Assembly: GCF_003207795.1 (NCBI RefSeq)
Contig: NZ_NIRT01000015.1
Location: forward strand, 1 to 64,000
Direction of reading: 5' to 3'
Source: Komagataeibacter nataicola
Lineage (GTDB): Bacteria > Pseudomonadota > Alphaproteobacteria > Acetobacterales > Acetobacteraceae
Length of the DNA stretch: 64,000 nt
Shown: positions 1,584 through 49,962 of the stretch, piece after piece
How the letters are laid out: each line of letters starts with the position of its first letter
Position numbering within the stretch: position 1 is the first letter of the stretch
Program-made: the position numbers and the translations under genes
Notes under the pieces: model-generated
What the model was told of the DNA's origin: nothing
The model's input: the letters and a program-made list of their open reading frames with translations, nothing else
Database searches by the model: none

Positions 1584-2054
1584 CTAAAACGGGATTTCAT
1601 CATCCACGTCCTGCGCGTTGGAAGTTGCGGCAGGAACGGGGCGCTGTGCAGCGCTCCGCGAGGGACGCTCTTCATCAAAACGTCCATCGCCCGTGCTTCG
1701 ACCATTGGCCAGCACCTTCAGGTTTCCATCAAACCGATCAATGATGATCTCGGTCACATAACGGTCCTGTCCCTGCTGGTCGGTCCACTTGCGTGTCTCG
1801 AGATGGCCTTCGACATAGACCAGCGTTCCCTTCTGGCACCGACGTTCGATCACGGCTGAAAGGTGATCGTTGAAAGAGACGACACGGTGCCACTGGGTTT
1901 TTTCCCGGCGCTCACCGCTGGCGCGATCGGTCCAGGTTTCGCTTGTCGCCACGCCGAAGGATGCGATTTTGCCCTCCCCTTCCCTGCGTGCGGCAAGATC
2001 CGGATCCCTGCCCAGGTGACCGATGATGATGGCGCGATTGACTGACTGGCTCAT
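1584..2054 (-). CDS. ssb: single-stranded DNA-binding protein
   Basis: A complete 156-aa SSB. Residues 1-110 form the OB fold, starting MSQSVNRAIIIGHLGRDPD and including the TQWHRVV and YVEGHLETRKW segments typical of the family. A disordered linker (about 111-148) follows, then the acidic tail ending DDEIPF that recruits partner proteins. The ATG has AAGGAA 9 nt upstream. Plasmid SSBs coat transferred single strands and can damp the SOS response in a new host; here it sits with other establishment-type genes. A long palindromic leader lies 91 nt upstream (2145-2233). Confidence 0.95.
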   Translation of the reverse strand: MSQSVNRAIIIGHLGRDPDLAARREGEGKIASFGVATSETWTDRASGERREKTQWHRVVSFNDHLSAVIERRCQKGTLVYVEGHLETRKWTDQQGQDRYVTEIIIDRFDGNLKVLANGRSTGDGRFDEERPSRSAAQRPVPAATSNAQDVDDEIPF

Positions 2055-2144: not shown

Positions 2145-2233
2145 GGGCGCAACCCCTCGGGGCGGCAGTGGTGCGGAAGCCGCGCATGCGGCTTCACGGT
2201 GCCGTCCCGACCGCAGGCCCGGGGGTTGCGCCC
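2145..2233 (-). promoter_or_regulatory. large stem-loop leader upstream of ssb
   Basis: The GC-rich part of the 364-nt gap upstream of ssb folds on a perfect 12-bp outer stem (2145-2156 with 2222-2233). Inside is a perfect 8-bp hairpin with a 4-nt loop (2176-2183/2188-2195), flanked by a CGGCA/TGCCG pair. Upstream of it in ssb sense is an A/T tract (2306-2319) resembling those preceding the structured repeats at 5446-5526 and 16065-16145. The sequence is not clearly homologous to those repeats, but position and architecture are alike. Possible roles are a structured leader RNA, a single-strand promoter or a terminator. Confidence 0.5.
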
Positions 2234-4257: not shown

Positions 4258-5157
4258 TCAGGCGGCAGAAGCCACGTCCTCGACGGACAGCCGACGTGTC
4301 GATGAGCTGAAAATGTATTGGGCCGCGGCTGAAGCAGCACTCGCTGCGGTGAAAATGGCGCGCTTGTCAGCCTTCAGCAGTGCCAGCCAGTTCCCGATGT
4401 AATCCGCATGGCGGACCGTCGGCTCGATCTGCAGTTCCGCGCACACGAAAGCTGATGTCATCTCTGCAACCAGTTCCTCGGCCGCGTAGGCATGGTCCCC
4501 AAACCGCCTGCCAAAGGTGCGCGCCAGTCGGCTTTCGGCCCCGGTCCAATGCCCGATCTCGTGAAAGACGGTTCGGTACCAGTCGATCTGGTTGAAATAG
4601 GACTGCTGGGGCGGAACCCGGATGAAGTCCGCATCCGGGGCATAAAATGCCTTGTCACCACCGATGCGAATGTCCGCCCCGGTTTCGGTCATCAGCGCTT
4701 CCGCGTGCGGCACGATTTCGCGTTCCGGCAACGGCGCGGTCGGCGCGACCATGCTCTCCGGCAGGTTCTCGCACTGGTCAACATTGAACACCGTAAACCG
4801 CTTTAGAAACGGGATCTGGCGTGGCTCGTCGGAACCCGCTTCCGATTTTGGCGTGAAACGGTCAGCATAAAACACCGTCGTTCCCTTCTCGCCTTTCCTG
4901 ACATTGCCGCCCTGCGCATGCGCCTGACGGAACGTCAGCCATTTCTGGGTAGAAAACCCCTGCATCTCTACCGAACCCCACAGCATCAGGATGTTGATCC
5001 CGGAATAGGCCCGATCGGTCGCGGCATTACGCGGCAGGGCAATGCCGCATTTCGCGCGGCTCCACGGGCAGACCCACGGCACGGTTCCCGCTTCAAGTTC
5101 GCGGATGATGCGGTCAGTGACGGACTGGTGAATATCGGTACGTTCGGTTCTGGCCAT
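4258..5157 (-). CDS. ardC: ArdC-like antirestriction protein (zincin metallopeptidase)
   Basis: A 299-aa protein of the ArdC family: an N-terminal DUF1738-type ssDNA-binding domain (about 5-125, with the DIHQSVTDRII, GTVPWVCPW and YSGINILMLW segments) and a C-terminal zincin metallopeptidase domain. HEIGH at 199-203 supplies two zinc ligands and the catalytic Glu, and EELVAE at 227-232 the third ligand region. ArdC proteins protect incoming conjugative DNA from restriction and bind single-stranded DNA. GGAG lies upstream of the ATG. The C-terminus is Ala/Ser-rich. Its place near ssb and in one orientation with the other backbone genes fits an early-expressed establishment function. Confidence 0.9.
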   Translation of the reverse strand: MARTERTDIHQSVTDRIIRELEAGTVPWVCPWSRAKCGIALPRNAATDRAYSGINILMLWGSVEMQGFSTQKWLTFRQAHAQGGNVRKGEKGTTVFYADRFTPKSEAGSDEPRQIPFLKRFTVFNVDQCENLPESMVAPTAPLPEREIVPHAEALMTETGADIRIGGDKAFYAPDADFIRVPPQQSYFNQIDWYRTVFHEIGHWTGAESRLARTFGRRFGDHAYAAEELVAEMTSAFVCAELQIEPTVRHADYIGNWLALLKADKRAIFTAASAASAAAQYIFSSSTRRLSVEDVASAA

Positions 5158-5229: not shown

Positions 5230-5385
5230 TCACCTGAGATCGATGATGCCCGTGCACGGATCGAGGAAGACGTCGGGCAGCAGGAGGAAAGTGACCATGG
5301 AGGCCGTCCAGAGGAGCACGATGGCGACGAATTTGGCGATTTCGACGACGGGGCGGGACGGCGGCGCGATGCGGTTCTGTGCCAT
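5230..5385 (-). CDS. 51-aa single-pass membrane protein
   Basis: A short frame begins at 5385 with AAGGAT upstream. After a polar N-terminus (MAQNRIAPPSRPVVE) it has one hydrophobic helix, about residues 17-39, and ends with a short polar tail. The GC-rich sequence upstream stays open but is the structured repeat, so the longer frame is not the gene. Function unknown; it is probably co-transcribed with ardC 72 nt downstream. Confidence 0.55.
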   Translation of the reverse strand: MAQNRIAPPSRPVVEIAKFVAIVLLWTASMVTFLLLPDVFLDPCTGIIDLR

Positions 5386-5445
5386 TTCCAGATCCTTTTT
5401 TCGAGGGTTTCGACCCCTTCCGGCGACCGCAGGGCAGACTGGCGG

Positions 5446-5526
5446 GCAAGGGCGCCGCACAGCGGCGGCACCGGAGCCGCGCACAGATGGCGCAGCCATC
5501 GCGCACGGCGAGGAGCCACCCCTTGC
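5446..5526 (-). repeat. 81-nt structured repeat, copy A
   Basis: Copy A of a dispersed intergenic element, 60 nt upstream of the 51-aa gene. It is gap-free over 81 nt against copies B and C and matches B at 70 of 81 positions (hand count). A 7-bp closing stem (GCAAGGG/CCCTTGC in plus coordinates) encloses two arms: CGCCGC-ACA-GCGGCG (5453-5467) and GATGGC-GCA-GCCATC (5486-5500). In the second arm two base pairs are A-T and T-A here but G-C and C-G in B and C. An A/T-rich tract (about 5565-5610) precedes it in the minus-strand sense. Confidence 0.8.
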
Positions 5527-5603
5527 GCGGCAGGCTGGACTGTGGTGCACGCCTCCTACCTTTACTGTTTCATTTATTTATATATTTTGTTTTTATTGTA
5601 TTT

Positions 5604-6119
5604 TTATTCAGAGCAGGCCTTTCCAGATCCGCCATCCGGTCGTCCGGATCGGTTTTTTTGCGGGGATGCCAGATAGGGGCAACTGATCCGCGCAGGCGTG
5701 ACATCAATCCACAAACGACTGCCCACAGTCGCCTCCAGTGCCTTGCGGATGGTGTCGGCAGAAAGAAATTCCGCGCCATCGTCACCGCCAAACGACGCGC
5801 GTTTGACATCGTACCAGTCGTCAGGACGTGTGCGCGGGTCCGCTTCGACAGCATAGGCGACAAGGTTCGCCTGACCCTCAGCGTCACTGAAGCCCGGATA
5901 ACCATTCGACATCAGGTACACCCCATGATCGCCAACCAGCATGAGACCTGCCGGTATCTTCGCACGGTCGACATCCGCACCGGTCGGATGGCGCGACGAC
6001 ACGCCAGCCTTGAGAAAGGCCGGGTCAACAAGCTGATCATAGGTAGGGGAATGTTCGCTCGCGGCTTGCGCATGAGCAAGAAGACGCGCCACCAGGGCGT
6101 GGTCAAAATGAAGTTTCAT
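5604..6119 (-). CDS. DUF3085-domain plasmid protein
   Basis: A 171-aa protein. The N-terminal 110 residues match my recollection of DUF3085: MKLHFDHALVARLLAHA, then a pattern ending in AGLMLVGDHGVYLMSNGYP. The start at 6119 has AAGGA 10 nt upstream. The C-terminal tail (after about 150) runs into low-complexity sequence next to the A/T tract and may not be conserved. DUF3085 genes are common on large alphaproteobacterial plasmids; their role is unknown. It follows the DUF5983 gene by 122 nt. Confidence 0.7.
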   Translation of the reverse strand: MKLHFDHALVARLLAHAQAASEHSPTYDQLVDPAFLKAGVSSRHPTGADVDRAKIPAGLMLVGDHGVYLMSNGYPGFSDAEGQANLVAYAVEADPRTRPDDWYDVKRASFGGDDGAEFLSADTIRKALEATVGSRLWIDVTPARISCPYLASPQKNRSGRPDGGSGKACSE

Positions 6120-6241
6120 TGCAGTATTCCTTCGTGTGATCCCCTTGCGAGGACACAAAAAAGGCGGAACACCGAAGTATCCCGCCTTAAGAAATAAGAA
6201 CTGGCGCCTCTGGCCCGAGGGACGCCCGATGCCGTTGCCGG

Positions 6242-6550
6242 TCATTCATCTTCATCGTCATCAAAGAAACGAAGCGAGGCATCGACCGGGCCGTCCGCAT
6301 CAAACAGGACGTAATCACAGTCGTGATTCCGGGCCAGGGCAAGAATGGCCCGCAGTGACCGCGACCCCGGCCAATCATGGGAGTATGGATCCAGCGGGAC
6401 ATGGACAAACCATCCGTGCGGGCCGGACAGGCAGGTCAGCCCAAAGGAGCCACCTGACCTTGCATATCTCTCAAGGTGTCCACGGTCCGACAGGGGGAGG
6501 TGGCCGGTGCTCAGGTCGAGGAATTTCCGGATCTGGAAAGGCGCTAACAT
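6242..6550 (-). CDS. DUF5983-like small plasmid protein
   Basis: A 102-aa protein starting MLAPFQIRKFLDLSTGHLP, with GGAG 9 nt before the ATG. The RKFLDLSTGHLPLSDR opening, a central GWFVHVP strand and a CDYVLFDADGP strand before an acidic tail (DDDEDE) resemble DUF5983 proteins found beside DUF3085 on plasmids. Function unknown. It lies 31 nt downstream of the PAPS-reductase-like gene, so the two are probably co-transcribed. Confidence 0.6.
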   Translation of the reverse strand: MLAPFQIRKFLDLSTGHLPLSDRGHLERYARSGGSFGLTCLSGPHGWFVHVPLDPYSHDWPGSRSLRAILALARNHDCDYVLFDADGPVDASLRFFDDDEDE

Positions 6551-6581
6551 CGGGTTTCTCCCTGCTGGAAGATGAGGCGGG

Positions 6582-7607
6582 TCAGACCGGCCCGGCGCTC
6601 TCGCCGAATGCACCAGCGGGCAGGACCCATTGTTCGGGGGATGTGAGGACACGGCCACGCCAGCGGCGGCAGAGCGCGCGGCGCACCCGATCCGGGTGCC
6701 GGCGCACGGGGCCGTAGACCGTGCCGCCACTGGCCAGCGTGCCGAGGTCCCGGTCGCGTCGGATGGTGCAGCCAAATGCGCGTTCCCACTCACACAGCCG
6801 GGCGAACCGATCCGGGTCCATGTGACGCAGCGTTGCAGCCTGATCGGCAGACATGAATACACATGCCAGGCAGGACAGACGGCCAAACCCGAGCTGATAG
6901 GGAAGCGGCGGAATCACGCCATGCCGACGCAGGATCTGCCAGACAGCCGCTTCACTCCAGGCATGTACCGGCCGCCAGTGATCGATATGCCGTCGGGCCC
7001 GACCATCACGACAGTCTGCCCGGTGCCGCTCAAAGACAGCGTAACGGGCACGGTTCGCGGATTCCGCCGCGCGTTCTCCGGTTACAAACAGGGTCCGGGC
7101 ATGACTGAAGCGCGCCTGGTTCCGCAGGGCACCATCCGCAACCATGATCTTGGCGTATGGGGAACACCAGCGGACCGACAGGTTCGCCGAAACCTGCGGG
7201 AAGCGGCGTCGCGTATTGGGCGGCCCCTTGCCACCGACAGTGACCCGCCCTGTCGGGGTATCGAACCAGACCGGTGCGGTCGGCGCATTATCGCGCAGCA
7301 TTTCCCGCACGATCCCACCCTGGCGCGCGGAGAAATACAGCCTGACGCCAAGGGCCGCAGCCAGATGCCGCCCGTAATCGGGCACATGCGGCCAGTCAAA
7401 AACGTCCCCGTCATCGTCCACAAGATGGTGCCACCACTCGATGCGCTGGGGCGCCACGCCCTTTTCGAGCAGGTGCAGCGTACTGGCGAGGGAATCCTTG
7501 CCAAAGGAACAGGCGACGATGACGTGATCATAACGCGCCAGATCAGGCATCTCTCCCTGCCCCGACACGACAGTTCCCTGGCGGGATGACAGGCTTGCGG
7601 TCGCCAT
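6582..7607 (-). CDS. PAPS-reductase-like adenine nucleotide alpha-hydrolase
   Basis: A 341-aa protein with the PP-loop of the PAPS reductase/ATP pyrophosphatase superfamily. Near residue 35 it reads VACSFGKDSLAS, the SFGKDS variant of SGGKDS that binds nucleotide. HW/DD residues and several Cys (WCSPYAK, LSCLACVFM) follow, as in phage and plasmid PAPS-reductase-domain proteins rather than sulfate-assimilation CysH. Some relatives (DndC) act in DNA sulfur modification, but no dnd neighbours are present, so the substrate is unknown. The start at 7607 is preferred because AAGGAGA lies 7 nt upstream; the ATG at 7613 would abut it. Repeat copy E lies 53 nt upstream. Confidence 0.75.
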   Translation of the reverse strand: MATASLSSRQGTVVSGQGEMPDLARYDHVIVACSFGKDSLASTLHLLEKGVAPQRIEWWHHLVDDDGDVFDWPHVPDYGRHLAAALGVRLYFSARQGGIVREMLRDNAPTAPVWFDTPTGRVTVGGKGPPNTRRRFPQVSANLSVRWCSPYAKIMVADGALRNQARFSHARTLFVTGERAAESANRARYAVFERHRADCRDGRARRHIDHWRPVHAWSEAAVWQILRRHGVIPPLPYQLGFGRLSCLACVFMSADQAATLRHMDPDRFARLCEWERAFGCTIRRDRDLGTLASGGTVYGPVRRHPDRVRRALCRRWRGRVLTSPEQWVLPAGAFGESAGPV

Positions 7608-7659
7608 GGACATTCTCCTTGTCTGAATGTCTTCTGGCGGTCCGACGGGGTATCGCGGG

Positions 7660-7721
7660 TCAAACGCGGCGCGTGCGCCGGCATCGCAGGCCCGCGGAGC
7701 GGGACAAGAGCCACCGTTTGA
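7660..7721 (-). repeat. structured repeat, divergent 62-nt copy E
   Basis: A shorter, diverged relative of the 81-nt element. In the minus sense a 7-nt stem strand is followed by GTGGCTC exactly as in copy A, then a CCCGC-TCC-GCGGG arm, a GATGC segment (GGTGC in A-C), a CGGCGC/GCGCCG arm, and the closing strand. The closing stem is TCAAACG/CGTTTGA instead of GCAAGGG/CCCTTGC: the pairing is kept with most of the sequence replaced. It lies 53 nt upstream of the PAPS-reductase-like gene and is preceded by a short A-rich tract (7743-7758). Confidence 0.6.
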
Positions 7722-7770
7722 GGCGCGATGGCCCTTCGGGCATATTTTTTTCTGTTTCTTCCTGCTTTTC

Positions 7771-8184
7771 CTACGCGTCCGCGTTCAGGTATTCGTGCAG
7801 ATACCGGCGTAGCACCATGCAGGCTGCATGGGTGTCCCGCTCACCGTCATCCGCAAGGACACGATCCATCACTCTGGCGAGAACGGCGGCTGCCTCTCGG
7901 CCCGGGCTGAAAACAAGGGAAAAACCAAACTGTCCCTGCAGCACGCCGGTCCCGGCATCGTGGACCATGGCCACGATCTCGCCATGGACGACTTCCTCGA
8001 CCTCAAGGTCCACTTCCTGACCGTCAGGCAGAATGGTGGTCCGGATCCCGTCAGAGTCCACACTGTCGGGGACCGCATCGAGGACGATCCGCGCAGCCGC
8101 CTCGGCGTCCGTCGCCGTGACCCTGAAATCGCCGGCATCCGCTTCAAACAGGCGCTCAACCAGCGTGACACGAAAATCAGGCAT
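7771..8184 (-). CDS. hypothetical protein, 137 aa
   Basis: A small acidic soluble protein (MPDFRVTLVERLFEADAGDF start), predicted mixed alpha/beta, with no recognised motif. Its ATG overlaps the end of the upstream gene by 8 nt, so translation is probably coupled. It is the last gene before the 157-nt gap holding repeat copy E. Function unknown. Confidence 0.6.
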   Translation of the reverse strand: MPDFRVTLVERLFEADAGDFRVTATDAEAAARIVLDAVPDSVDSDGIRTTILPDGQEVDLEVEEVVHGEIVAMVHDAGTGVLQGQFGFSLVFSPGREAAAVLARVMDRVLADDGERDTHAACMVLRRYLHEYLNADA

Positions 8185-8515
8185 TGCCGTCCTCCCTTAC
8201 CAGGACAAATTCGCTCAGTGTCTTGGCTTCCCGCCATGGGCAGTGCCACACCATCACGTCCTTTCCGCAGATTTCGGCGACAGAGCCACGCTCTCTCAGC
8301 CGGGTCAGCTCGGCCGATGTGACTCTGGGAACCGCCGTGAAAGCGGAAAATTCGACCACTGCCGCCTCCACGCTCTCATAGGGTCCCCGCCATCGGCGGG
8401 CCGCTGGCGGATAGATTTCAGGCGTCCGGATCAGAACCCCACCATCCGGGTGGAAGCCCAGTTCAACCACATACCTGCCGATCAGACGCTTTTCCGTCAT
8501 GTATTCATGGGTCAT
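8177..8515 (-). CDS. hypothetical protein, 112 aa
   Basis: A small soluble protein starting MTHEYMTEKRLIGRYVVELGF. The start at 8515 has GGAG about 9 nt upstream; the in-frame codon at 8539 lies across that site and is rejected. Mixed charged/aromatic composition with no known domain. Overlaps the downstream 137-aa gene by 8 nt and lies 183 nt downstream of the ParB-like gene. Confidence 0.6.
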   Translation of the reverse strand: MTHEYMTEKRLIGRYVVELGFHPDGGVLIRTPEIYPPAARRWRGPYESVEAAVVEFSAFTAVPRVTSAELTRLRERGSVAEICGKDVMVWHCPWREAKTLSEFVLVREDGNA

Positions 8516-8698
8516 CACGGTTCTCCTTCGCCGACGCAAGTGAACGCGTAACCTGACGTTCCGGATAAGCCCGGTTGGGGCGCATCGCAGAATTTCGCGG
8601 TCGACGTCCTGCCAGAGGCCGTTGCTGGCTCACCGCCCGACGTCACCACTGGGGGCGACGGGCCGTGAGCCAGAGCCGTACGGCGGCAACAGCCTCGC

Positions 8699-10624
8699 TC
8701 AGCTGAAGCCTACAAACTCAACATGCGTCCTGAGGAATTCTTCAGGTGTCTGCGATGGCGGAGCCAGACTTTCGGCCCTGCCGTGCGGCACCTCATCCCC
8801 CTGATCTGCCGCCAGGTCTGTGGGCGTGTCAGTCACTTCATCGAGCTCAATGCCCGTCGCGGCAGGATCATCGGTTCCCGGGCCACCAGTCCGCGCATCG
8901 GCATCCGCGTCGTCTTCCAACTCGGTCTCGTCGTCATGCGCCAGGTCCCCATCATCGTCATCCGCTTCGGATGGCGGGGCGAGCGCTTCCGCGAAGGTGG
9001 CGTTCAGCGCTGCGACATCGACCTGGAAACGCGCGGCAGGATGCACCCAGATCCCCTGCCCGACATGGTCCATCAGGGCGCGGCGCATTTCCTTGCCGGT
9101 ATTGCGCGGCAGGATGCCTTCGGCCTTTATGGCCTTCGTGATGCCGGACTTGCTGAGCGTTTTCAGGAAATCTTCATCCGCCATGGCAGGCAGATGGTCG
9201 TCCGCTTTCACGATATGGCCGACCAGGACACCCCAGTCGCCGCTATTCGTCGCGTTCTTTTCGCAGGACAGCACGGCTTTCAGCACGTCGACAGCAGCGC
9301 CACGCAGGACCGCCTCGTCCAGCGCCATCTCGCCATCCTGGAACAGTCCGGCGGCAGCCACGAGCCGCCGTGACGGACGGCGCTGCGGGTAGTGCGCGTT
9401 GGAATCCCCATCCACCCGGACATTCTGCGCGTTGAGGGCCGCGATCATCAGTCCGAGCAGGATCCATGGATCGGCAGAGCCCCGCATGCCATCCAATGCG
9501 GCATGCAGCGCCTGGGTGCGGAAACTGCCGATCATGTCAAAACCGCGCCCCGAGATATCGGGCCGTTCCCGTGGCCCTTCGGGCAGGGCTTCAATGACGG
9601 CGGACGGCGTCACGCGGCCTGCCGCCTCGCTGCCCGGCAGGACACACCAGCCCTCGCGAACCTTCAGGCGATGATCGAGCCAGAAGAATTTCGTGGCGCC
9701 CTCGCGCTGCCAGTAGATCCGCACCATGCCGGGTTCGAAAACCGGCTCGCCGTTCTCGTCGCTCTGGAGGATCAGTGCGTCTTCAGGCGTGTTCTGACCC
9801 AGCCACTGGCGCTGCGCCTTCTCGTAGGCGAAGCCGTCATCGGTATAACGGCCGTCCTTCCCGGCTTCACCGAACAGATCTTCCTGCCAGGCGATCCGGC
9901 AACTTTTTGCAATGGCGTCATCAAACGAGGCCTCGATTGCATAAAAACGGTCCTGCCGCAGGGCTGATGCAATCCGGTCCCAATCGGGGATGGCAGCGCC
10001 GGGTTCCCAATTTCCGTCGGGTAGTTGCTCGCCCTCATCTTCACAGGCTTCGACATCCTCGGGCGGCGACGAGCCAACCGGAAACCCGAAATGGCCCCAG
10101 ACCTGTTCCTGCAGCGCGGTTGACGCAAGGGCGATGCTCGCCAGTTCACGATTGCCAGGACCTTTGCCCGCCTCGATCCACGCCAGAATCTCGGGCAGGA
10201 TGGCAGACAGGCGACCGATCTGCTTCAGCTGCACCGGTGTGAGCATCAACGCCTTGCAGATCGCGGTGTCATTCCACTTTTTTTCCTCCCGGAGCCTGGC
10301 GACAACCCGCCACTGTTCAACCTGGGTCATGGGCTGACGGATCATGTTCTCCGATGCGGCACGCATCCGGTCCAGTTCCGCATCATCGCCTGCCACCGTC
10401 ACCTGAATGGTTTTCAGGCCGGCCTTGACTGCGGCACGCCGGCGGCGATGCCCTGCAACGATCATCAGGCCGTCAGGAGTTTCGCGGACCAGAGGCGGGT
10501 GGATGATCCCGACGGCCTTGACGTTCAGCGCCAGCTGGCGCTCTTCCGCCTCGTTGGGCGCGGATTTCCGCGGGTTTTCGGGGTTATCGAGCAGGGTTTT
10601 CGGATCGACTTCGCGCAGTTCCAT
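8699..10624 (-). CDS. large ParB/RepB-domain protein, 641 aa
   Basis: The N-terminal ParB-like domain (about 1-110) reads MELREVDPKTLLDNPENPRK, followed by VAGHRRRRAAVKAGL, which matches box II of the ParB/Srx CTPase fold (GHRR). A helix-turn-helix-like region follows (about 115-150, ICKALMLTPVQLKQIGRL). The remaining 480 residues are plasmid-specific and end in a very acidic, probably disordered tail. This is distinct from the true partition ParB at 17952-18833. Such long ParB-domain proteins are common in plasmid establishment or conjugation blocks; the role here is unknown. GGAG precedes the ATG, and repeat copy B lies 68 nt upstream, between this gene and the methylase-helicase gene. Confidence 0.85.
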   Translation of the reverse strand: MELREVDPKTLLDNPENPRKSAPNEAEERQLALNVKAVGIIHPPLVRETPDGLMIVAGHRRRRAAVKAGLKTIQVTVAGDDAELDRMRAASENMIRQPMTQVEQWRVVARLREEKKWNDTAICKALMLTPVQLKQIGRLSAILPEILAWIEAGKGPGNRELASIALASTALQEQVWGHFGFPVGSSPPEDVEACEDEGEQLPDGNWEPGAAIPDWDRIASALRQDRFYAIEASFDDAIAKSCRIAWQEDLFGEAGKDGRYTDDGFAYEKAQRQWLGQNTPEDALILQSDENGEPVFEPGMVRIYWQREGATKFFWLDHRLKVREGWCVLPGSEAAGRVTPSAVIEALPEGPRERPDISGRGFDMIGSFRTQALHAALDGMRGSADPWILLGLMIAALNAQNVRVDGDSNAHYPQRRPSRRLVAAAGLFQDGEMALDEAVLRGAAVDVLKAVLSCEKNATNSGDWGVLVGHIVKADDHLPAMADEDFLKTLSKSGITKAIKAEGILPRNTGKEMRRALMDHVGQGIWVHPAARFQVDVAALNATFAEALAPPSEADDDDGDLAHDDETELEDDADADARTGGPGTDDPAATGIELDEVTDTPTDLAADQGDEVPHGRAESLAPPSQTPEEFLRTHVEFVGFS

Positions 10625-10692
10625 GGTTTTTACTCCGTGTTCTCAGGACGCCTTTCCTGATGCACTCCGGCGGCCAGCACCGGGCTGGCGGG

Positions 10693-10773
10693 GCAAGGGC
10701 GCCGCGCAGCGGCGGCACCGGACCCGCGCGCAGGCGGCGCAGACGCCGAGCACGGGGAGGCGCCACCCCTTGC
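10693..10773 (-). repeat. 81-nt structured repeat, copy B
   Basis: Copy B, in the 177-nt gap between the methylase-helicase stop codon and the ParB-like start (68 nt downstream). The closing stem GCAAGGG/CCCTTGC and the arm CGCCGC-GCA-GCGGCG are intact. The second arm is GGCG/CGCC over 10733-10747. It matches copy C at 74 of 81 positions. Unlike A and C it has no A/T tract beside it; it sits directly after the upstream gene. Confidence 0.8.
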
Positions 10774-10801
10774 GGCGCCTGGCCGGAGATGGCAGCCCTT
10801 C

Positions 10802-13800
10802 TCAGGCTGCCGCCTCTTCTTCCTTCTCCCTGTCCTCGGTGTCGTCATGCGCCGGGTCTTCATCGGTCGCGGTCGCCGCCAGATCGTCTTCCAGCGCTTT
10901 CAGCTCCGCGCGCTTTTCATCAAGCATCGCCTGTTCCGCGAACGGCAGGCCCAGACGGGCGCGGTATGATGGCAGGCGACGCTGCGCTTCCTCCCGCATC
11001 CGGATTGCGTCACGGAGCGCGTCATCGATCCGAAGCAGCGCATGTTCAAGGCGCGAGGTCAGCCCAAGGCCCTTCGTGTCGTCCTCGATGGCGATCTCAA
11101 TGCGACCCGAGCGTGCTTCCACAAACAGCGTCACGTCGACCGCGCGCTTTTCGTAGTACACGCGACGGCCAGGCCCAGCTTCGCACATGACGGCGAACCC
11201 ACCGATGCGTCCAAGGTTCCAGACCCCTGCCTCACCGTTCTTTGCCGCCAGGCGGACCTGGGACAGGAGCCATGATCCGGCCTTCTCGCGCTCGCTGACG
11301 TCTCCCTTGTCCCTGCGCAATACGAACGCATCCCCCTTCGTGGGCTGACGGCTGGCAATATCCGCCTCGATAAGCGGGATCTGGCGCTCCGCGCCCGCAA
11401 TCTCACGCTCGGCCCGGTCGATGGCACGTTTTACGGCGAACTGGTCGTCATAATGGGCGGCCGCCAGTCTCTCGAGCCGCGCAAGATCGGCCTCCAGCCC
11501 GGCTTTGTGCATCAGCCGGGCATCGCCCGAGGCAAGCGCCTTGGCCATGGCGAACTGGTTTCCCCCTTCCCCGCCAATGTCCTCGATCCGCCGGATGGAA
11601 CGGTCACCTGACATCGCAAGTCCAATAAAGCGCTGCTTGCGTTCGAGGAGCTGCCAGTTGGTCGCGTCAACGGAACCCTGCTGGGCGTAGGCGTAGAGTT
11701 CGATTTCCGCGTGCTGGTTGCCCTGCCGCTCGATGCGTCCCTCGCGCTGGATGATGTCGGAGACCAGCCACGGCACGTCGAGATGGTGCAGGGCCTTGAG
11801 GCGCTGCTGGGCGTTGACGCCGGTGCCCATGGTCGCCGTCGAGCCGATCAGGATCCGCTTGCGGCCGGCATTGAGATCACCGAACAGCTTCTGCTTCGCC
11901 GCACTCTTCCTGTAGTGCTGCATGAACGCGATTTCCGCGCGCGGCACGCCCAGGCGGATCAGTTCATCGCGGATCCACGTATAGGCGGAAAAACCGCGTG
12001 TCTCCATCGCGCTCTCGGTGCCCAGATCCGAAAAGATCATCTGCACCGCCCCCGGCAGGTCGTACGGCCGACCGGTTTCAGGATCGCTGTAACGGCTTTC
12101 CGATGTCTCCTGCCAGATCCGGAACACGTTCCCGATCATCAGGTTCAGCTTCGATGTATCGTCATTCGCGGCGAGAGGGGCGACGAAGCGCAGGTCGATC
12201 GCGGCATGACGGGCATCCGTGATGACGGACAGGAGGATGTCGTCGCCCTTCTGGGGACGCCCCTGGCGCGCTTCGATGGCGTTGATGCGGGCCGCCAGCG
12301 TCTTCTGGTAGGCCCTGAAGTTATCGTTTGTCGGCGCGACAATAATCTCGCGACGTCCGCCTCGGATCGCTGGCAGAGTCACGTACTGGCGCAGGTCATC
12401 GTGCTGCACGACGTCCGCGAAGTCGCGATACATCGCCATGAGGTCGGCGACGTTGACGAACTCGGTGAAGCGCGTGACCGGCTTGTAAAGCCCGCTTGGC
12501 TGCAGTTCCAGTTCGGTACGGGTCTCGCCGAAATTGGCTGCCCAGGCATCGAATTCATGCAGGTAGCGCTTCTGCAGCGCCTCAAGATCCATATAGCGGC
12601 TGACCGTCCACATCTCGGCGAGCGTATTGGTGATCGGGGAACCGGACGCCATGATCAGCGGACGTTCCGGATTTTTTGCCGCCAGATAGCGCGTCTTCAC
12701 GAAGAGATCCCAGGCCCGCTGCGAGCCGTTCGGATCGACCCCCTTGAGGTCGGACTGGTTGGTTGCAAAACTCAGCTTCCGGAACTGCTGCGCTTCATCG
12801 ACGAGGATCTGGTCGATACCGATCTCGCCCAGATGCACGAGATCGTCCTTGCGAGCGGAAAGGCCTTCCAGCTTCGCCTGCATCTTCTCCTTCATGCTCT
12901 CGACCCGCTTGCGCGACAGACGGTCTGACGCGTCGACGCTTTCCAGCACTTCCTCGTAAGACGCGATCTGCGCCTCGATCATCTGGCGCTCGAAATTCCC
13001 CTCCACCGGGATGAACCGGAACGCATCATGCGTGATGATGATCGCATCCCAGTTTCCGGTCGCGGCCCGCGCGAGGAACCGCTGGCGCTTTGCCTTCACG
13101 AAGTTCGTCTCGTCGGCGACGAGGATCCGTGCGGTCGGGTAGAGCATGAGGAATTCGCGAGCCATCTGGGCGAGGCAGTGACCGGGGACGGCGATCATCG
13201 CCTTGCTGATCAGGCCAAGCCGCTTCTGCTCCATGACAGCCGCAACCATCGAGAACGTCTTTCCGGAGCCGACCGCGTGCGCGATATACGTGCCGCCCGC
13301 GGCGATGATCCGCCAGATGACCCGTTTCTGGTGGGGGCGCAGGCTGATCGTGGTGCTTGCACCGGGCAGGCGCAGATGGGAGCCATCAAACGCGCGTGCA
13401 ACCAGGTTGTTGTAAGTATCATTGTACAGCCGGACCAGCCGCTCGGCCCGATCGCCATCCTGCCAGACCCATGTCTCGAACGCACGCCTGATCGCTGCCA
13501 GTTTTTCCTTTGCGGCTTCCGTCTCCTGTGTGTTCAGTTCGCGGTGCTCATTGCCATCGCCATCACGCCAGACATCCCATATTTTTGGCGATGCCTGCGT
13601 CAGGGCATCTTCCAGCAGTTCGCCGGCATGTCGCCGTTCCGTCCCCCAGACTGACGTAGCCTCGGCCTTGCCCATGAACGCCCGTTTCTCCACGGTCCAG
13701 CAGGCGACCGCGGGCGCGTGATAGATGATCGTCTCGACCCCGAGCACCTCGGCGGTAAAGGCAATAATGTCACTGACCGGCAACCACGGAGCCCCGAGGC

Positions 13801-15901
13801 GCGCGGTGATTTCCGAAGGACGCAGATCGGCTGGCTGGACGGCTTCCAGCGCCGTGACGCTCCGGGCGTAGCGTCCATCGATCCGGGCTGCATCGCGTGC
13901 CTCTTCCAGCTTGGTACGCACTGGGCCGGAGAGCATTTCGTCAGCCGTGACCCAGACATCGCGACCGTCCACGCTCCGTACCGGATCGAGATACACCGCA
14001 TCCCCCAGTGCGGCTGCGACCTCAGCTTCGGACTGTCCCATGAGTTCCGCGATCCGCGGCATTTCCACGCCGCCTGTTTCATGCAGGCAGACAGCCAGGG
14101 CGTCGTGGGCGGAATGGATCTCGGGTTCGACAGGCGCATGAATGACCCGTTCCGAGAAAATCGGTCCCATCCGGCCCTTCTGTGTCGCCTCGTCATATTC
14201 CTCGACGGACGAAACCAGCCAGACATCGGGATCATCGTAAAATGGCATCAGGTTTGGCCGCCGCTGGGTTTCGTTCTCGACCCCGGTTTCCGGGTCGATC
14301 CTGACCGTCACGTTCATCAGGTTGATCGGTCCGAACTGTCGGACAAAGCTGAAATAGGCACGCTTCAGGTCGCCCTGCAGGCGTCCATGGGGCAGGTTCT
14401 CCATCTGCGCCCGCAGAACCGCGCGTGCTGCATCCCGGACGGGTATCAGTGCGGTAATGATCCGGGCATGCTTCTGGAAAAGGCCGTCCTTCTGATCCCC
14501 CTTCCTGATGGCGACCGTAGCGGCCTGGCCGTCGCATATCTGTTGCAGGACACCTTTCGTGACGAAGTAGGATCCCTCTTTCAGCTGGGCGCCATCGGCA
14601 GCCGTGCCGATCAGGATACCGGATCCCGTCGGCCGGACGATGCGCTGGTCCAGGGGTTCCGGAAACCGCACGTCCTGCCCGATCCGGTCCAAAGCGTCGG
14701 GCAACATCACATCGAGCCTGAGGCCGACAGGCGCGTCGCATGTGTAATCGGGACCGAACTGGGTAGTGGTCCAGCCGTGACGGCCAAGCACCTGCTCCGG
14801 ATGGTCGAGGAAATAGCGGTTAACAAGGAGAGGGCCGTTGCCCTGGTCGCTGTTCACAAGAGCGCTGGTTTCCAGCCAGGCCTTATCATCGGCCATGTCG
14901 CCGATCATGCGCTTTCGAAACACCAGCACGTCCACCACGACGTCCGTGCCGGCGTCATCGCGCATGGCTCCGGCCGGAAGACGGACCGCCCCCACGAGGT
15001 CAGCCATTTTAGCGATGGTCCGACGCGCGGTGCTGTCCGTCTTGTCCAGCGTATGGCGGGATGTCACGAAGATTGCAATGCCGCCCGGGCGGAGTGCTTC
15101 GATGGATCGGGCGATGAAAAAGTCATGCAGGCTCAGGCCAAGCCGCCCCAGACCTTCGGGGGCCCGCACGGTGCGATTGGAAAAGGGTGGATTACCGATT
15201 GCAAGGTCGTACCCGGTTGCGAGCTTCGCTGTCGTGAAATCCTCGCTGCGGATCCACTGGTTCGGATAGAGCCTGCGCGCAATCCTTGCTGTGATCGGAT
15301 CATTCTCGATCCCGGTAAAGGCGATGCGTCCCTCGAGCTTTTCCGGTCGGGCCGCGATAAAAAGACCGGTGCCACACCCGGGTTCGAGCACGGAACCGCC
15401 TCTGAATCCCATCCGCAACACTTTACTCCAGAGTGCGTGCACGATCAGTTCAGGGGTGAAGTGCGCATATTGTGTTGCGCGCTTCAGTCCTGCCCTCTCA
15501 ATGTCTGTTGTGGAGGCATGGATCGCCTCGCCAATTTCTTCCCAGCCTGGACGGGCACTATCGCTTCCAGATGGGAACAGGTTGTTCGCCAGTTCTCCTG
15601 CTCCAAAGCCGATGAAGCGTGACAGGACGATCTGTTCGGGGGACGATGCGTTTCGGTCAGCTTCTTCGATCTCCTTGAGCAGTGCGATTGCCAGCGCATT
15701 GTCACGGGCTCGCTGTTTCCAGGTGGCTGCGAGGCTTCGGTCGGTAACCATATGAAAGTCGATCTGGGGAAGGGCCATCGCGGCCGGTGTGGCGGGCGAG
15801 GCAAGGGATGAACCGTCTTCACCTTCAAGTTCGCCCCAGAAAAGGTCGTTCTGGGTATCTGCGAGAGCGGTTGTACCGAAGAGGTTGAGCTGGAACGACA
15901 T
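10802..15901 (-). CDS. N6-adenine methylase / SF2 helicase fusion, 1,699 aa
   Basis: A giant DNA-processing protein. The N-terminal third is an N6-adenine methyltransferase: EPGCGTG (about 173-179) binds S-adenosylmethionine and NPPF (about 237-240) is the catalytic motif IV. The middle and C-terminal parts form an SF2/SNF2-like helicase: AVGSGKT as Walker A, VDEAQQ as Walker B, MASGSPITN as motif III, and a C-terminal lobe with GTGVNAQQRLKALHHLD and REGRIERQGN. The last 200 residues are coiled-coil-like and acidic. The domain layout recalls phage P1 DarB and other plasmid methylase-helicases that shield incoming DNA. The start at 15901 has GGAG 7 nt upstream, better than the frame opening at 15928. 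Repeat copy C lies 163 nt upstream. Confidence 0.88.
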   Translation of the reverse strand: MSFQLNLFGTTALADTQNDLFWGELEGEDGSSLASPATPAAMALPQIDFHMVTDRSLAATWKQRARDNALAIALLKEIEEADRNASSPEQIVLSRFIGFGAGELANNLFPSGSDSARPGWEEIGEAIHASTTDIERAGLKRATQYAHFTPELIVHALWSKVLRMGFRGGSVLEPGCGTGLFIAARPEKLEGRIAFTGIENDPITARIARRLYPNQWIRSEDFTTAKLATGYDLAIGNPPFSNRTVRAPEGLGRLGLSLHDFFIARSIEALRPGGIAIFVTSRHTLDKTDSTARRTIAKMADLVGAVRLPAGAMRDDAGTDVVVDVLVFRKRMIGDMADDKAWLETSALVNSDQGNGPLLVNRYFLDHPEQVLGRHGWTTTQFGPDYTCDAPVGLRLDVMLPDALDRIGQDVRFPEPLDQRIVRPTGSGILIGTAADGAQLKEGSYFVTKGVLQQICDGQAATVAIRKGDQKDGLFQKHARIITALIPVRDAARAVLRAQMENLPHGRLQGDLKRAYFSFVRQFGPINLMNVTVRIDPETGVENETQRRPNLMPFYDDPDVWLVSSVEEYDEATQKGRMGPIFSERVIHAPVEPEIHSAHDALAVCLHETGGVEMPRIAELMGQSEAEVAAALGDAVYLDPVRSVDGRDVWVTADEMLSGPVRTKLEEARDAARIDGRYARSVTALEAVQPADLRPSEITARLGAPWLPVSDIIAFTAEVLGVETIIYHAPAVACWTVEKRAFMGKAEATSVWGTERRHAGELLEDALTQASPKIWDVWRDGDGNEHRELNTQETEAAKEKLAAIRRAFETWVWQDGDRAERLVRLYNDTYNNLVARAFDGSHLRLPGASTTISLRPHQKRVIWRIIAAGGTYIAHAVGSGKTFSMVAAVMEQKRLGLISKAMIAVPGHCLAQMAREFLMLYPTARILVADETNFVKAKRQRFLARAATGNWDAIIITHDAFRFIPVEGNFERQMIEAQIASYEEVLESVDASDRLSRKRVESMKEKMQAKLEGLSARKDDLVHLGEIGIDQILVDEAQQFRKLSFATNQSDLKGVDPNGSQRAWDLFVKTRYLAAKNPERPLIMASGSPITNTLAEMWTVSRYMDLEALQKRYLHEFDAWAANFGETRTELELQPSGLYKPVTRFTEFVNVADLMAMYRDFADVVQHDDLRQYVTLPAIRGGRREIIVAPTNDNFRAYQKTLAARINAIEARQGRPQKGDDILLSVITDARHAAIDLRFVAPLAANDDTSKLNLMIGNVFRIWQETSESRYSDPETGRPYDLPGAVQMIFSDLGTESAMETRGFSAYTWIRDELIRLGVPRAEIAFMQHYRKSAAKQKLFGDLNAGRKRILIGSTATMGTGVNAQQRLKALHHLDVPWLVSDIIQREGRIERQGNQHAEIELYAYAQQGSVDATNWQLLERKQRFIGLAMSGDRSIRRIEDIGGEGGNQFAMAKALASGDARLMHKAGLEADLARLERLAAAHYDDQFAVKRAIDRAEREIAGAERQIPLIEADIASRQPTKGDAFVLRRDKGDVSEREKAGSWLLSQVRLAAKNGEAGVWNLGRIGGFAVMCEAGPGRRVYYEKRAVDVTLFVEARSGRIEIAIEDDTKGLGLTSRLEHALLRIDDALRDAIRMREEAQRRLPSYRARLGLPFAEQAMLDEKRAELKALEDDLAATATDEDPAHDDTEDREKEEEAAA

Positions 15902-16064
15902 GGCCGTGCTCCGTACAAACGCCGGCACCCGGCACTGCTTCTGCAGGCCGGGATGGTTCCGGGGTCAGGTTTTCGGGATGTCAGGAACGGGCGTGCTAAC
16001 CAGGTTGTGCTGCCTGATTACTCTTTCCTTCAGCTCTCGTTGCCAGCGGGTCGGGCGGTGCGGG

Positions 16065-16145
16065 GCAAGGGTGCCGCGTAGCGGCAGCACCGGACCCGCG
16101 CGCAGGCGACGCAGACGCCGAGCACGGGGAGGAGCAGCCCCTTGC
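16065..16145 (-). repeat. 81-nt structured repeat, copy C
   Basis: Copy C, upstream of the methylase-helicase gene. The closing stem is identical to A and B. The first arm is TGCCGC-GTA-GCGGCA (16072-16086), where the outer pair is T-A instead of the C-G of A and B, a compensatory change. An A/T-rich tract with TATTTTTATTTC at about 16198-16209 precedes it in the minus sense, as for copy A. Confidence 0.8.
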
Positions 16146-16513: not shown

Positions 16514-17020
16514 GTGCGCGATGTTCCGATAAGACGTGCGCGATATTCCGAATGAGAATCGCGTTCCTGTGAATAACGGGAGTAATCATCGTCGACAGGG
16601 CAGAAGGCATACTTTGCGACCGTCAAGAACAACTGCAACAGGCCTCCAATTCTTGGGAATGGATATAGGGAAGAGAAAACTTCGGAATATCGCGCACGCC
16701 GGAAAAGGCATTAGGCCAGACATTCGGAATATCGCGCACATTAACGATCTTCACCTTGCTAATTCGGTTATCAAGTTCATGCCGATAGTTGTCCAAGGTG
16801 TTTATGAGGCTCAGTCTTTGCCCAAACGCCATGAATTCGGAACATCGCGCACGTTTAAGGTAGGTCCCTAGCGTTCGGACGTCTATGCGTTTGATTCCTT
16901 GGGCGATGACAAGTTATGGCATCCGATAACCAGCAGGCTTGGTATCTTGGGTATTTTGCGCTTTACAGCCGCCTAGGAAAACAAACGCGACAGCGTCTCA
17001 TGGTTCGGAACATCGCGCAC
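16514..17020. repeat. iteron array of the replication origin (six 17-bp repeats)
   Basis: Six copies of TTCGGAAYATCGCGCAC: inverted at 16514-16530 and 16536-16552, direct at 16681-16697, 16723-16739, 16836-16852 and 17004-17020. Only the Y position and one terminal base vary. A seventh copy lies in the rep promoter (17885-17901). Spacing is irregular (22, 42, 113 and 168 nt between starts in order), unlike the regular helical phasing of many origins. Iterons bind the initiator for replication, copy control and handcuffing. No credible gene lies within 16210-17040. Confidence 0.9.
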
Positions 17021-17042: not shown

Positions 17043-17861
17043 CTAAGATTGTGATTCTCGATGTTCAAAAATCACTACGGGACGCCCTCCCCTTGGACCT
17101 ACTTCGAGAGATAGTTGATAATCGGGGATAACGTCATCGCCTATAATTTTGAGAAGATCTCTTTTGAAAAATCGTAATTCGCGTGTAGTACCGATTTTCT
17201 TGGCAAGTTTATCTAGACTAATTTTCCATATTTCTTGGTTACCAAGATGCTTTCGTCCGATCTCATAAATACGGCGACCCAAGCCACTATCGAGACTAAA
17301 ATAAGTGGGGTTAATTGTCAGCACCCTGCGTTCCTTGACGAGGGCACGAAACATCCAGTCATTGAGCGTAATTTCAATGGCTGCCATAATTTTACGGCCG
17401 GTCGATGTTTTCCGCTCGACTACGCGCCATGTCTCTATCCAGCCAAACCCGCGCCGGTCGCGTTCGTCTGCGGATTCGATTGTTGTCATGATGTTCGTAG
17501 ATCTCAGACGATGAAGCGCATCGAGCAAAAGGTCATAGCTGCGCTTACCTGTTCCTCGACCCGTGACGCGCAGGAGATCATGCGCAGCGAAGCGGACTGT
17601 ATGGTCGACAGTCATTCCGCGCTCAATGCGTTCATTGATAAGGGAGACTACATAAAGAAGTATGTCCTTATCCCAAATCGTCGCAAGCCCTTTTGGGCCA
17701 GGTTCTATGGTAATTTGTATTTTCCCGTCGTCATATACCAGAGGCTCCATGCGCGGTTGCTTCTGGATGCTGAAGAACGGATATTCCATAAGGGCTCTGT
17801 CATCCTTTAACGGAGCCCCTATTAGGGAGTCGACAAACAGGTCAGCTTCGTTGCTAGCCAT
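17043..17861 (-). CDS. repA: plasmid replication initiator (RepA / RPA family)
   Basis: A 272-aa initiator. The segments FFSIQKQPR, TIEPGPKGLATIWDKDILLYVVSLI and HDLLRVTGRGTGKRSYDLLLDALHRLR match the replication initiator protein A family of proteobacterial plasmids, a winged-helix Rep. It should bind the 17-bp iterons on both sides of the gene; the copy at 17885-17901 lies 24 nt before the ATG and suggests autorepression. GGGGTAG precedes the start. It is the last gene of the parA-parB-rep order, all on the minus strand. This is not a repABC module, because there is no repC-type initiator. Confidence 0.92.
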   Translation of the reverse strand: MASNEADLFVDSLIGAPLKDDRALMEYPFFSIQKQPRMEPLVYDDGKIQITIEPGPKGLATIWDKDILLYVVSLINERIERGMTVDHTVRFAAHDLLRVTGRGTGKRSYDLLLDALHRLRSTNIMTTIESADERDRRGFGWIETWRVVERKTSTGRKIMAAIEITLNDWMFRALVKERRVLTINPTYFSLDSGLGRRIYEIGRKHLGNQEIWKISLDKLAKKIGTTRELRFFKRDLLKIIGDDVIPDYQLSLEVGPRGGRPVVIFEHRESQS

Positions 17862-49107: not shown

Positions 49108-49962
49108 TTAGTCGTCCGTTGATCGGGTTAATTCCTCCCAATCCGCAATTTCCCTTTCCAGGCGTGAGATCCGCTCACGAACCAAACGGAGAGCATCACT
49201 TCCAAGAAGGAGTTGCGGCGGGGGGGAAGCGGACGCAACAAGCTGGAGCACTGCGGCAGCAAGTTTCGCCGGATCACCCAACTGCTTTCCGTCTTTCTCC
49301 TGCCGCGCTGCGCGGATCGGATCGAACAGAGCGTCATAGTCCGCAATCGAGCGCTCGGTCCTTACCATCGAACGACCGGCCCAGTCTGTGCGAAATGATC
49401 CGGGGCACAGCGCCGTGACATGAACGCCGAAAGGTGCCATTTCGGCGCGCATGACCTCTGAAATACCCTGCAAGGCGAATTTACTACCACAGTAATACGC
49501 TATGCCGGGCATTGTGATGAGACCACCCATTGATGTCACGTTCACAATAAACCCGCTGCGACGTTCGCGAAAACGCGGCAGGAAGGCTTTGGCGATCGCA
49601 ACCGCACCAAAGACATTAACGTCGAACTGGTGACGCATTTCCTCAAGGGGTGATTCCTCCAGCACGCCCTCGTGTCCATAACCTGCATTGTTGATGAGCA
49701 CATCGACCGGGCCGTGATCTTCTTCTGTCTGTGCGACGATGGCGGGAATGCGGTCGAATTCGGTGACGTCACAAAGGACTGCACAGATATCCGGCAGTTG
49801 CTCCAGCAAGGATGCCCTTGCGGTTTGCGATCGGATCGTACCAATCACCCGATGACCTGCTTCAAGAGCAGCCTTGGCGATGGCCAACCCAAACCCAGAA
49901 TTGGCACCGGTTATGAAAAAAGTCTGCTCTGGCATGGTTTTGCTCTGTTTGATAACATTCAT
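49108..49962 (-). CDS. SDR-family oxidoreductase
   Basis: A 284-aa SDR of the longer YbbO-like type: FFITGANSGFGLAIAKAAL near residue 15, NNAGYG near 90, active site S...YYCGSKFAL near 145-160, then CPGSFRTDW. The C-terminal helix is charged. Start at 49962 (AAGG upstream) or 49935. Divergent from the AraC_N-type regulator at 50031, probably its regulator, as yqhC is for yqhD. Substrate unknown, perhaps aldehydes. Confidence 0.88.
   Translation of the reverse strand: MNVIKQSKTMPEQTFFITGANSGFGLAIAKAALEAGHRVIGTIRSQTARASLLEQLPDICAVLCDVTEFDRIPAIVAQTEEDHGPVDVLINNAGYGHEGVLEESPLEEMRHQFDVNVFGAVAIAKAFLPRFRERRSGFIVNVTSMGGLITMPGIAYYCGSKFALQGISEVMRAEMAPFGVHVTALCPGSFRTDWAGRSMVRTERSIADYDALFDPIRAARQEKDGKQLGDPAKLAAAVLQLVASASPPPQLLLGSDALRLVRERISRLEREIADWEELTRSTDD

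Follow-up and report, generated by a model that had tools for sequence, protein, structure and literature searches.

Three-way-junction elements upstream of plasmid genes in Acetobacteraceae as possible control elements acting on incoming single-stranded DNA

The leading regions of conjugative plasmids carry anti-defence genes and genes for single-stranded-DNA-binding protein (SSB) on the transferred strand, or T-strand (PMC11541004). In the F plasmid, leading genes are reported to depend on two elements, Frpo1 and Frpo2, for their early expression (PMC9849209). Elements of this kind (Frpo/ssi), present in F, ColIb-P9 and other leading regions, are folded non-coding T-strand stem-loops that occur in several copies per plasmid and lie upstream of genes of the leading region, ssb and anti-restriction genes among them (PMC9849209, PMC11541004). 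A second parallel is STAXI, a conserved structure located near DNA-handling plasmid genes (SSB, topoisomerase, antirestriction, integrase) and described as repeated pseudoknots, for which its authors weighed single-stranded DNA as the active form (Weinberg 2010, PMC2864571). Here we describe a family of elements recognized in a 64,000-nucleotide stretch of Komagataeibacter nataicola DNA (assembly GCF_003207795.1, contig NZ_NIRT01000015.1, positions 1 to 64,000; called the window below). Like Frpo/ssi, they are folded non-coding elements, several per plasmid, before genes of a similar kind and apparently on the T-strand; unlike Frpo/ssi, they form a three-way junction in which -10/-35 boxes were not detected, and unlike STAXI they are not repeated pseudoknots. 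On balance we consider it likely that they belong to the leading region of conjugative plasmids and act there as single-stranded DNA control elements, serving as hairpin platforms for early transcription.

The core of the element is a conserved three-way junction of helices P1, which carries a near-invariant CAA/TTG, P2 and P3, enclosed by a long outer stem, P0 (Table 1). The initial annotation of the window had aligned three 81-nucleotide copies (A, B and C) by hand; its counts of 70/81 and 74/81 identities agree with the 86% (B against A) and 91% (B against C) found over 81 nt, and the closing stem GCAAGGG/CCCTTGC that it reported is real, as are its compensatory changes. A 17-nt core, sought with up to three mismatches, occurs four times in the window against 0.23 times expected from shuffles; three of the occurrences are A, B and C and the fourth lies at 49643. 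The shorter copy D is a relative and scores 48.5 bits with the covariance model of the family, whose training set includes it, and copies of 61-62 nt akin to D are found in other genera as well; the D core by itself does not fold better than shuffles. Among the best 23 candidates scored in the window's own genome, the model matches four, A to D, and the further weak partial matches given by a DNA search of that genome (E of at least 0.006) were treated as chance.

The family also bears out the claim that base pairing is under selection. Over 124 distinct copies, standard pairs fill 95.1% of the paired cells, and double changes occur at 24 of 28 pairs, with a covariation score of 0.434 against 0.112 when shuffled and at most 0.059 when slid, for an alignment that is fitted to the structure model and in which related copies are not independent. 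The outer stem had been missed around every copy. Its arms vary freely among copies, each copy pairs with its own flanks, and P0 covaries between copies: the mean pairing energy is -31.5 kcal/mol against -23.9 (sd 0.4) for permuted flanks, with none of 2000 permutations as low (85 non-redundant flank sets out of 143 elements, one element being kept per similarity cluster). Measured against shuffles of the same copy's flanks, P0 stands out less (mean z -1.79, with 36% under -2). Outside P0 comes a stretch in which purines predominate on the mRNA strand (fraction 0.64-0.70 at 21-70 nt upstream, falling to about 0.50 past 80 nt); the A-rich tracts previously reported before three of the copies do exist, as part of this family-wide stretch.

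The CAA/TTG of P1 holds 1.3-2.0 bits, compared with 0.26-0.62 bits at pairs 5 and 6, which indicates that pairing is not the sole constraint on the triplet. Such near-invariance, together with other sequence blocks, would suit a DNA-binding protein that recognizes a duplex site or a cruciform, and also an antisense RNA. We regard these readings as very unlikely: the arms of P0 vary freely among copies, and the strand bias described below would not be expected of a duplex site.

Similar DNA is present in 41 plasmid records, at full length in ten Komagataeibacter or Novacetimonas records and in part in Gluconobacter and Roseomonas. A descriptor of the closing stem (N-CAA-NNN / NNN-TTG-N) found more copies on plasmids of Gluconobacter, Lichenicola and Roseomonas, whose closing stems differ yet pair. 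It served better than a regular expression for a GGTGGC-type stem, which was dropped as its matches were mostly coding noise, though the descriptor matched coding sequence too. The covariance model that had been suggested, built from 17 training copies, has matches in 40 of 200 Acetobacteraceae genomes at E 0.01 (26 of 102 genera) and, at E 1e-5, in 69 of 397 genomes of an overlapping draw. It also matches 71 of 250 genomes drawn from the order, the matches listed being all in Acetobacteraceae. In a class-wide draw of 385 genomes (E 0.001), only the window's own genome and one genome of another family (G592) were matched; the model derives from copies in Acetobacteraceae and gives the short Roseomonas form a weak score, hence absence elsewhere is not implied. 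At least nine copies lie on one Roseomonas plasmid stretch, and a single genome has up to 13 model matches.

On 11 annotated plasmids, all 49 copies are intergenic and all 49 are followed by a gene on the same strand, with a distance to the start codon of 46-68 nt in 39 of them (median 62, range 46-213). Many of these copies are equivalents of each other in related plasmids. They comprise 35 model matches at E 0.01 or below and 14 weaker model or descriptor matches picked by hand for family resemblance; in-gene descriptor matches lacking that resemblance were excluded, as were two weak model matches (E 0.69 and 0.99, one of them in a gene). The 35 model matches taken separately are likewise all intergenic and all co-oriented, 27 of them at 46-68 nt. 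In the window, the gaps to the start codon are about 60 nt (A, to a 51-aa open reading frame), 46 nt (D), 68 nt (B) and 162 nt (C), and these values replace the 53-163 nt given before. The copies precede successive genes of one unidirectional cluster, and equivalent copies keep the same gene in related plasmids. Genes found downstream of elements encode helicase/methylase, ParB_N, PAPS-reductase, ArdC, SSB and Toprim proteins, or are small unknown genes.

The initial annotation had named, as evidence that would speak against a functional structure, copies inside genes or in random orientation and a match to a transposable (REP/MITE) family; among the 49 copies, as among the 35, no position or orientation independent of the genes was seen. 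Mobile palindromic repeats of the REP/MITE kind, or recombination sites of the attC kind, would share with the elements the state of multicopy intergenic hairpins, as many as 13 per genome by the model, with a short conserved triplet pair, CAA/TTG, which we take to be comparable to the AAC/GTT of attC. They are nevertheless highly improbable in view of the uniform orientation relative to the downstream gene, the narrow range of distances to it, the pairing of each copy with its own flanks and the presence of equivalent copies at the same gene in related plasmids.

The strand that folds could be approached in two ways, from folding energies and from mismatches, and together these suggest that it is the strand opposite the mRNA. 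With 27-nt flanks, the antisense strand is better than the sense strand, each being scored against its dinucleotide shuffles, in 43 of 51 elements with RNA energies (p 4e-7; held-out set 9/12, p 0.016) and in 40 of 51 with DNA energies (p 4e-7; held-out 10/12, p 0.007). The two sets hold one element per similarity cluster, 51 non-redundant out of 150 and 12 out of 55 held-out. As DNA with flanks, the antisense strand reaches a z of -4.06, the stable T-strand fold expected of Frpo/ssi. Thiamine pyrophosphate (TPP) riboswitches, used as a control, show no strand bias (13/24 and 15/24), so that the control is no proof that the test picks the strand of a true RNA. Mismatches in the core helices, read on the mRNA strand, are A.C in 39 cases and G.T in 17 (p 0.005, one invariant T.G pair excluded), and an A.C on the mRNA strand is a G.T on the opposite strand. 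In TPP riboswitches from 24 Acetobacteraceae genera the counts are G.U 10 and A.C 2 (p 0.001 against 39:17; 24 of 30 loci were used, six with longer inserts being excluded). The same excess is seen in inner P0 (A.C 20, G.T 6; baseline 0.51, p 0.01) and in outer P0 (44 and 8; baseline 0.65, p 0.003), where a single conserved position dominates.

These results bear on the first of the two mechanisms proposed in the initial annotation, a structured 5' leader RNA. Such a leader would be transcribed with each gene and would control translation or elongation, perhaps through a plasmid or host protein shared by the genes. The fixed distance to the start codon and the strict orientation agree with it; so do the sense strand, which with its flanks also beats shuffles (z -3.05), the invariant T.G pair in P2 and a slight excess of Shine-Dalgarno hairpins over shuffles (16.7 against 14.8). 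The better folding of the antisense strand, the excess of A.C over G.T on the mRNA strand, which is the reverse of the TPP control, and the lack of a matching Rfam family in the stretches searched weaken it, and we hold a leader RNA to be rather unlikely.

The second proposal, a hairpin promoter on single-stranded DNA, gains from the strand result and from the position of the elements relative to a putative nic site. A MOBF relaxase domain is encoded on nine of the 11 plasmids, and the model matches are confined to one strand per plasmid (40/40). Comparison of the DNA upstream of relaxase genes revealed a conserved core, CATASACCATTGCACC, adjoining a hairpin; nic-like patterns by themselves had given no clear site. 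With at most one mismatch, the core occurs once in 8 of the 11 plasmids, on the element strand in 8/8 and 4.5-36 kb beyond the elements; in W02 the relaxase gene is about 11 kb from the candidate. Read as its reverse complement, the core region is similar to the R388 nic oligonucleotide (sequence from PMC4176350): a CGCACC/GGTGC hairpin with a 4-nt loop is followed by a stretch that ends in TCT or TGT before AT. In 26 further genomes, 15 contigs, several of which are closely related to one another and to the 11 plasmids, hold both elements and a nic candidate. The strands agree on 13. On 10 of these the candidate is directly past the elements; on G278:C2, G022:C3 and G250:C2 it is reached from all or some of them only round the circle. 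The window's own contig lacks the CATASACCATTGCACC core, three copies of which are on other contigs of the draft genome.

The T-strand comprises the DNA 3' of the nick. As the R388-like candidate is found on the element strand wherever it occurs in the 11 plasmids, the elements would be placed in the leading region and, if nicking occurs as in R388, the T-strand would run from the candidate into the element cluster and be the template strand of its genes. We infer that the folded strand is the transferred one. By this putative nic site, all eight plasmids that have it would carry their elements, as with Frpo/ssi, upstream of leading-region genes for which the T-strand is the template.

The folded strand, the inferred place in the leading region and the distance to the start codon together favour an element working on incoming single-stranded DNA. 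The elements probably act as promoters for the leading-region genes (ArdC, SSB, ParB-like, methylase/helicase). When the T-strand enters the recipient, each hairpin would fold and so offer a double-stranded platform where transcription would be started by RNA polymerase or by another factor. The anti-restriction, SSB and other establishment genes would then be expressed ahead of second-strand synthesis. The TTG of P1 might be used as a -35 element, with transcription beginning close to the purine-rich stretch 27-47 nt past the element.

Several observations weigh against promoters working on the T-strand. As DNA with flanks, copies A, B and D of the window prefer the plus strand (z -3.47, -2.88 and -3.58, against -1.41, -0.99 and -2.13 on the minus strand), but C does not (-2.29 and -2.54), and its core is absent from the minimum-energy fold of either strand. 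Without flanks, the core shows no energy difference between strands. As regards mismatches, the invariant T.G pair of P2 favours the mRNA strand; P1 and P3, minus the sequence-bound pair, give 14:6 (p 0.12), a looser count in P3 runs opposite to the bias (A.C 8, G.T 13), and held-out P0 yields only 10:6. The sequence CATACACCATTGCACC is a candidate nic site only; the CATASACCATTGCACC core, at up to one mismatch, is missing in pGOX1, pGOX2 and NZ_CP102495.1. The MOBF relaxase gene of W07 is about 100 kb from the nic candidate and on the other strand, one element is opposed on G022:C2, and nic candidates occur on both strands of G231:C1. Lastly, -10/-35 boxes are not enriched in the stem: among 85 copies, TAT..T occurs in 4, against 5 for a control stretch, TTGAC in none, and TA...T and GCTA..WC are likewise without enrichment, so that boxes of the Frpo/ssi kind are not seen. 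In Gluconobacter, promoters are described as having a lax -35, 'ttGnnn', and a weak 'nAtnnn' (PMC5756330), and the TTG of P1 may thus serve as a -35. On our analysis, the resemblance to Frpo is one of logic, which is shared, and not of boxes.

The missing boxes would be less surprising for T-strand hairpins that prime second-strand synthesis or load a plasmid protein in the manner of ssi, the proximity to gene starts being a by-product. The evidence on strand and leading region is the same for this explanation as for promoters, and the cluster encodes SSB and a Toprim protein. It is quite unlikely, however, as priming does not require what is found in 49 of 49 copies, a place before a gene start at a narrow distance.

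The elements do not correspond to a described family in the comparisons made. The Rfam comparison that had been suggested was run: at the gathering score no family lies on a copy in the window or in loci L050, L051, L057 and L058, and with lenient thresholds the copies are unmatched at E 10 in window positions 1-24000 and at E 5 in L122, L144 and L148. Identity with STAXI or with the radC motif (RF01754), which is located before DNA-handling genes, was rejected, neither Rfam model having matched a copy. On two Roseomonas plasmids, Rfam reports suhB/mmgR small RNA matches (L050 29347-29422, L051 20334-20409). Copy B with its flanks has no similar DNA at E 0.01 in 20,395 Escherichia coli records (genomes and plasmids), a search in which known Frpo sequences were not aligned directly. 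Motifs from genome-wide RNA discovery rest on the same type of evidence, covariation in GC-rich intergenic regions (PMC6429828, PMC11109978); the words Acetobacter, Gluconobacter, Roseomonas and plasmid are absent from the main texts of these two papers. The titles and abstract openings listed in literature searches gave no description of such an element in acetic-acid bacteria and their relatives.

The genes beside the window copies are listed in Table 1. The 51-aa frame after copy A (5230-5379) has no Pfam match, and the helicase/methylase-like protein after copy C matches Helicase_C, ResIII, SNF2 and Eco57I, each slightly below the curated cut-off. Its relatives are labelled 'lactate dehydrogenase' in L053 (3973-9072), L059 (14873-19972) and L060 (14873-19972), a name that is probably wrong judging by the Pfam matches of the window protein. 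Hairpins with a Shine-Dalgarno-like loop lie near start codons downstream of many elements, for instance at 7585-7635 (minus strand) of the window; as a set they are outside the claim made here. At 16520-17010, CGGAATATCGCGCAC-type repeats that resemble replication iterons adjoin a RepA gene (17043-17861).

A hairpin of another type, which the initial annotation did not mention, was noticed near ssb; in the window it is not matched by the covariance model of the family. This second conserved hairpin, GGCAGTGGTGCGGAAG...CTTCACGGTGCCG, precedes ssb or a small gene, and its exact pattern occurs in 8 of 244 loci.

Table 1. Positions of the elements, neighbouring genes and related features (window coordinates unless a locus is named)
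Feature	Position	Strand	Remark
Copy A	5446..5526	+ (inferred folding strand = T-strand; mRNA sense minus)	three-way-junction core, 81 nt
Copy D	7660..7721	+ (inferred folding strand)	short core form, 62 nt
Copy B	10693..10773	+ (inferred folding strand)	three-way-junction core, 81 nt
Copy C	16065..16145	+ (inferred folding strand)	three-way-junction core, 81 nt
A outer stem P0, gene-proximal arm	5420..5445	+	fold with flanks
A outer stem P0, far arm	5527..5552	+	fold with flanks
D outer stem P0, gene-proximal arm	7636..7659	+	fold with flanks
D outer stem P0, far arm	7722..7745	+	fold with flanks
B outer stem P0, gene-proximal arm	10668..10692	+	fold with flanks
B outer stem P0, far arm	10774..10799	+	fold with flanks
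B purine-rich tract	10803..10842	-	within 3' end of upstream 1708-aa gene
SSB	1584..2054	-	domain match
ArdC-type anti-restriction protein (ArdcN and zincin-like domain)	4258..5157	-	domain match
51-aa open reading frame downstream of A	5230..5385	-	counterpart of a small gene annotated in related plasmids, 60 nt from the element; followed by ArdC
PAPS-reductase-domain protein downstream of D	6582..7613	-	domain match
ParB N-terminal-domain protein downstream of B	8699..10624	-	domain match
Large helicase/methylase-like protein downstream of C	10802..15902	-	start from annotated relatives
Possible fifth, different hairpin	2149..2229	-	precedes ssb; stem closed by GCAACCCC/GGGGTTGC on both strands
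GGCAGTGGTGCGGAAG...CTTCACGGTGCCG hairpin sites	L053 20621-20661, L058 29248-29288, L059 30009-30049, L060 28562-28602		
GGCAGTGGTGCGGAAG...CTTCACGGTGCCG hairpin sites, further	window 2149-2229; L117 5852-5890, L125 705-743, L127 3321-3359, L199 5011-5049		
Putative R388-like nic/oriT sites	L156 1136-1180 (NZ_CP043045.1 near 50043), L158 884, L159 3032, L160 3338, L161 3302		upstream of MOBF relaxase genes

The known single-stranded promoters are a few enterobacterial sequences, extended through similarity or through -10/-35 boxes. It is quite possible, though somewhat less likely than not, that the elements described here represent an undescribed class of single-stranded DNA promoter, in which a three-way junction of the T-strand, lacking sigma-70 boxes, is present many times per plasmid and switches on MOBF leading regions in Acetobacteraceae at entry. 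If true, the existence of such a covarying family in another bacterial class, with its strand resolved, would imply that incoming single-stranded DNA can be expressed through a different design. Asymmetry in folding and in mismatches is also a generally usable means of asking on which strand a conserved hairpin works. The covariance model would pick up leading regions missed by similarity, and in laboratory acetic-acid bacteria it would become possible to test when anti-restriction genes are expressed during conjugation.

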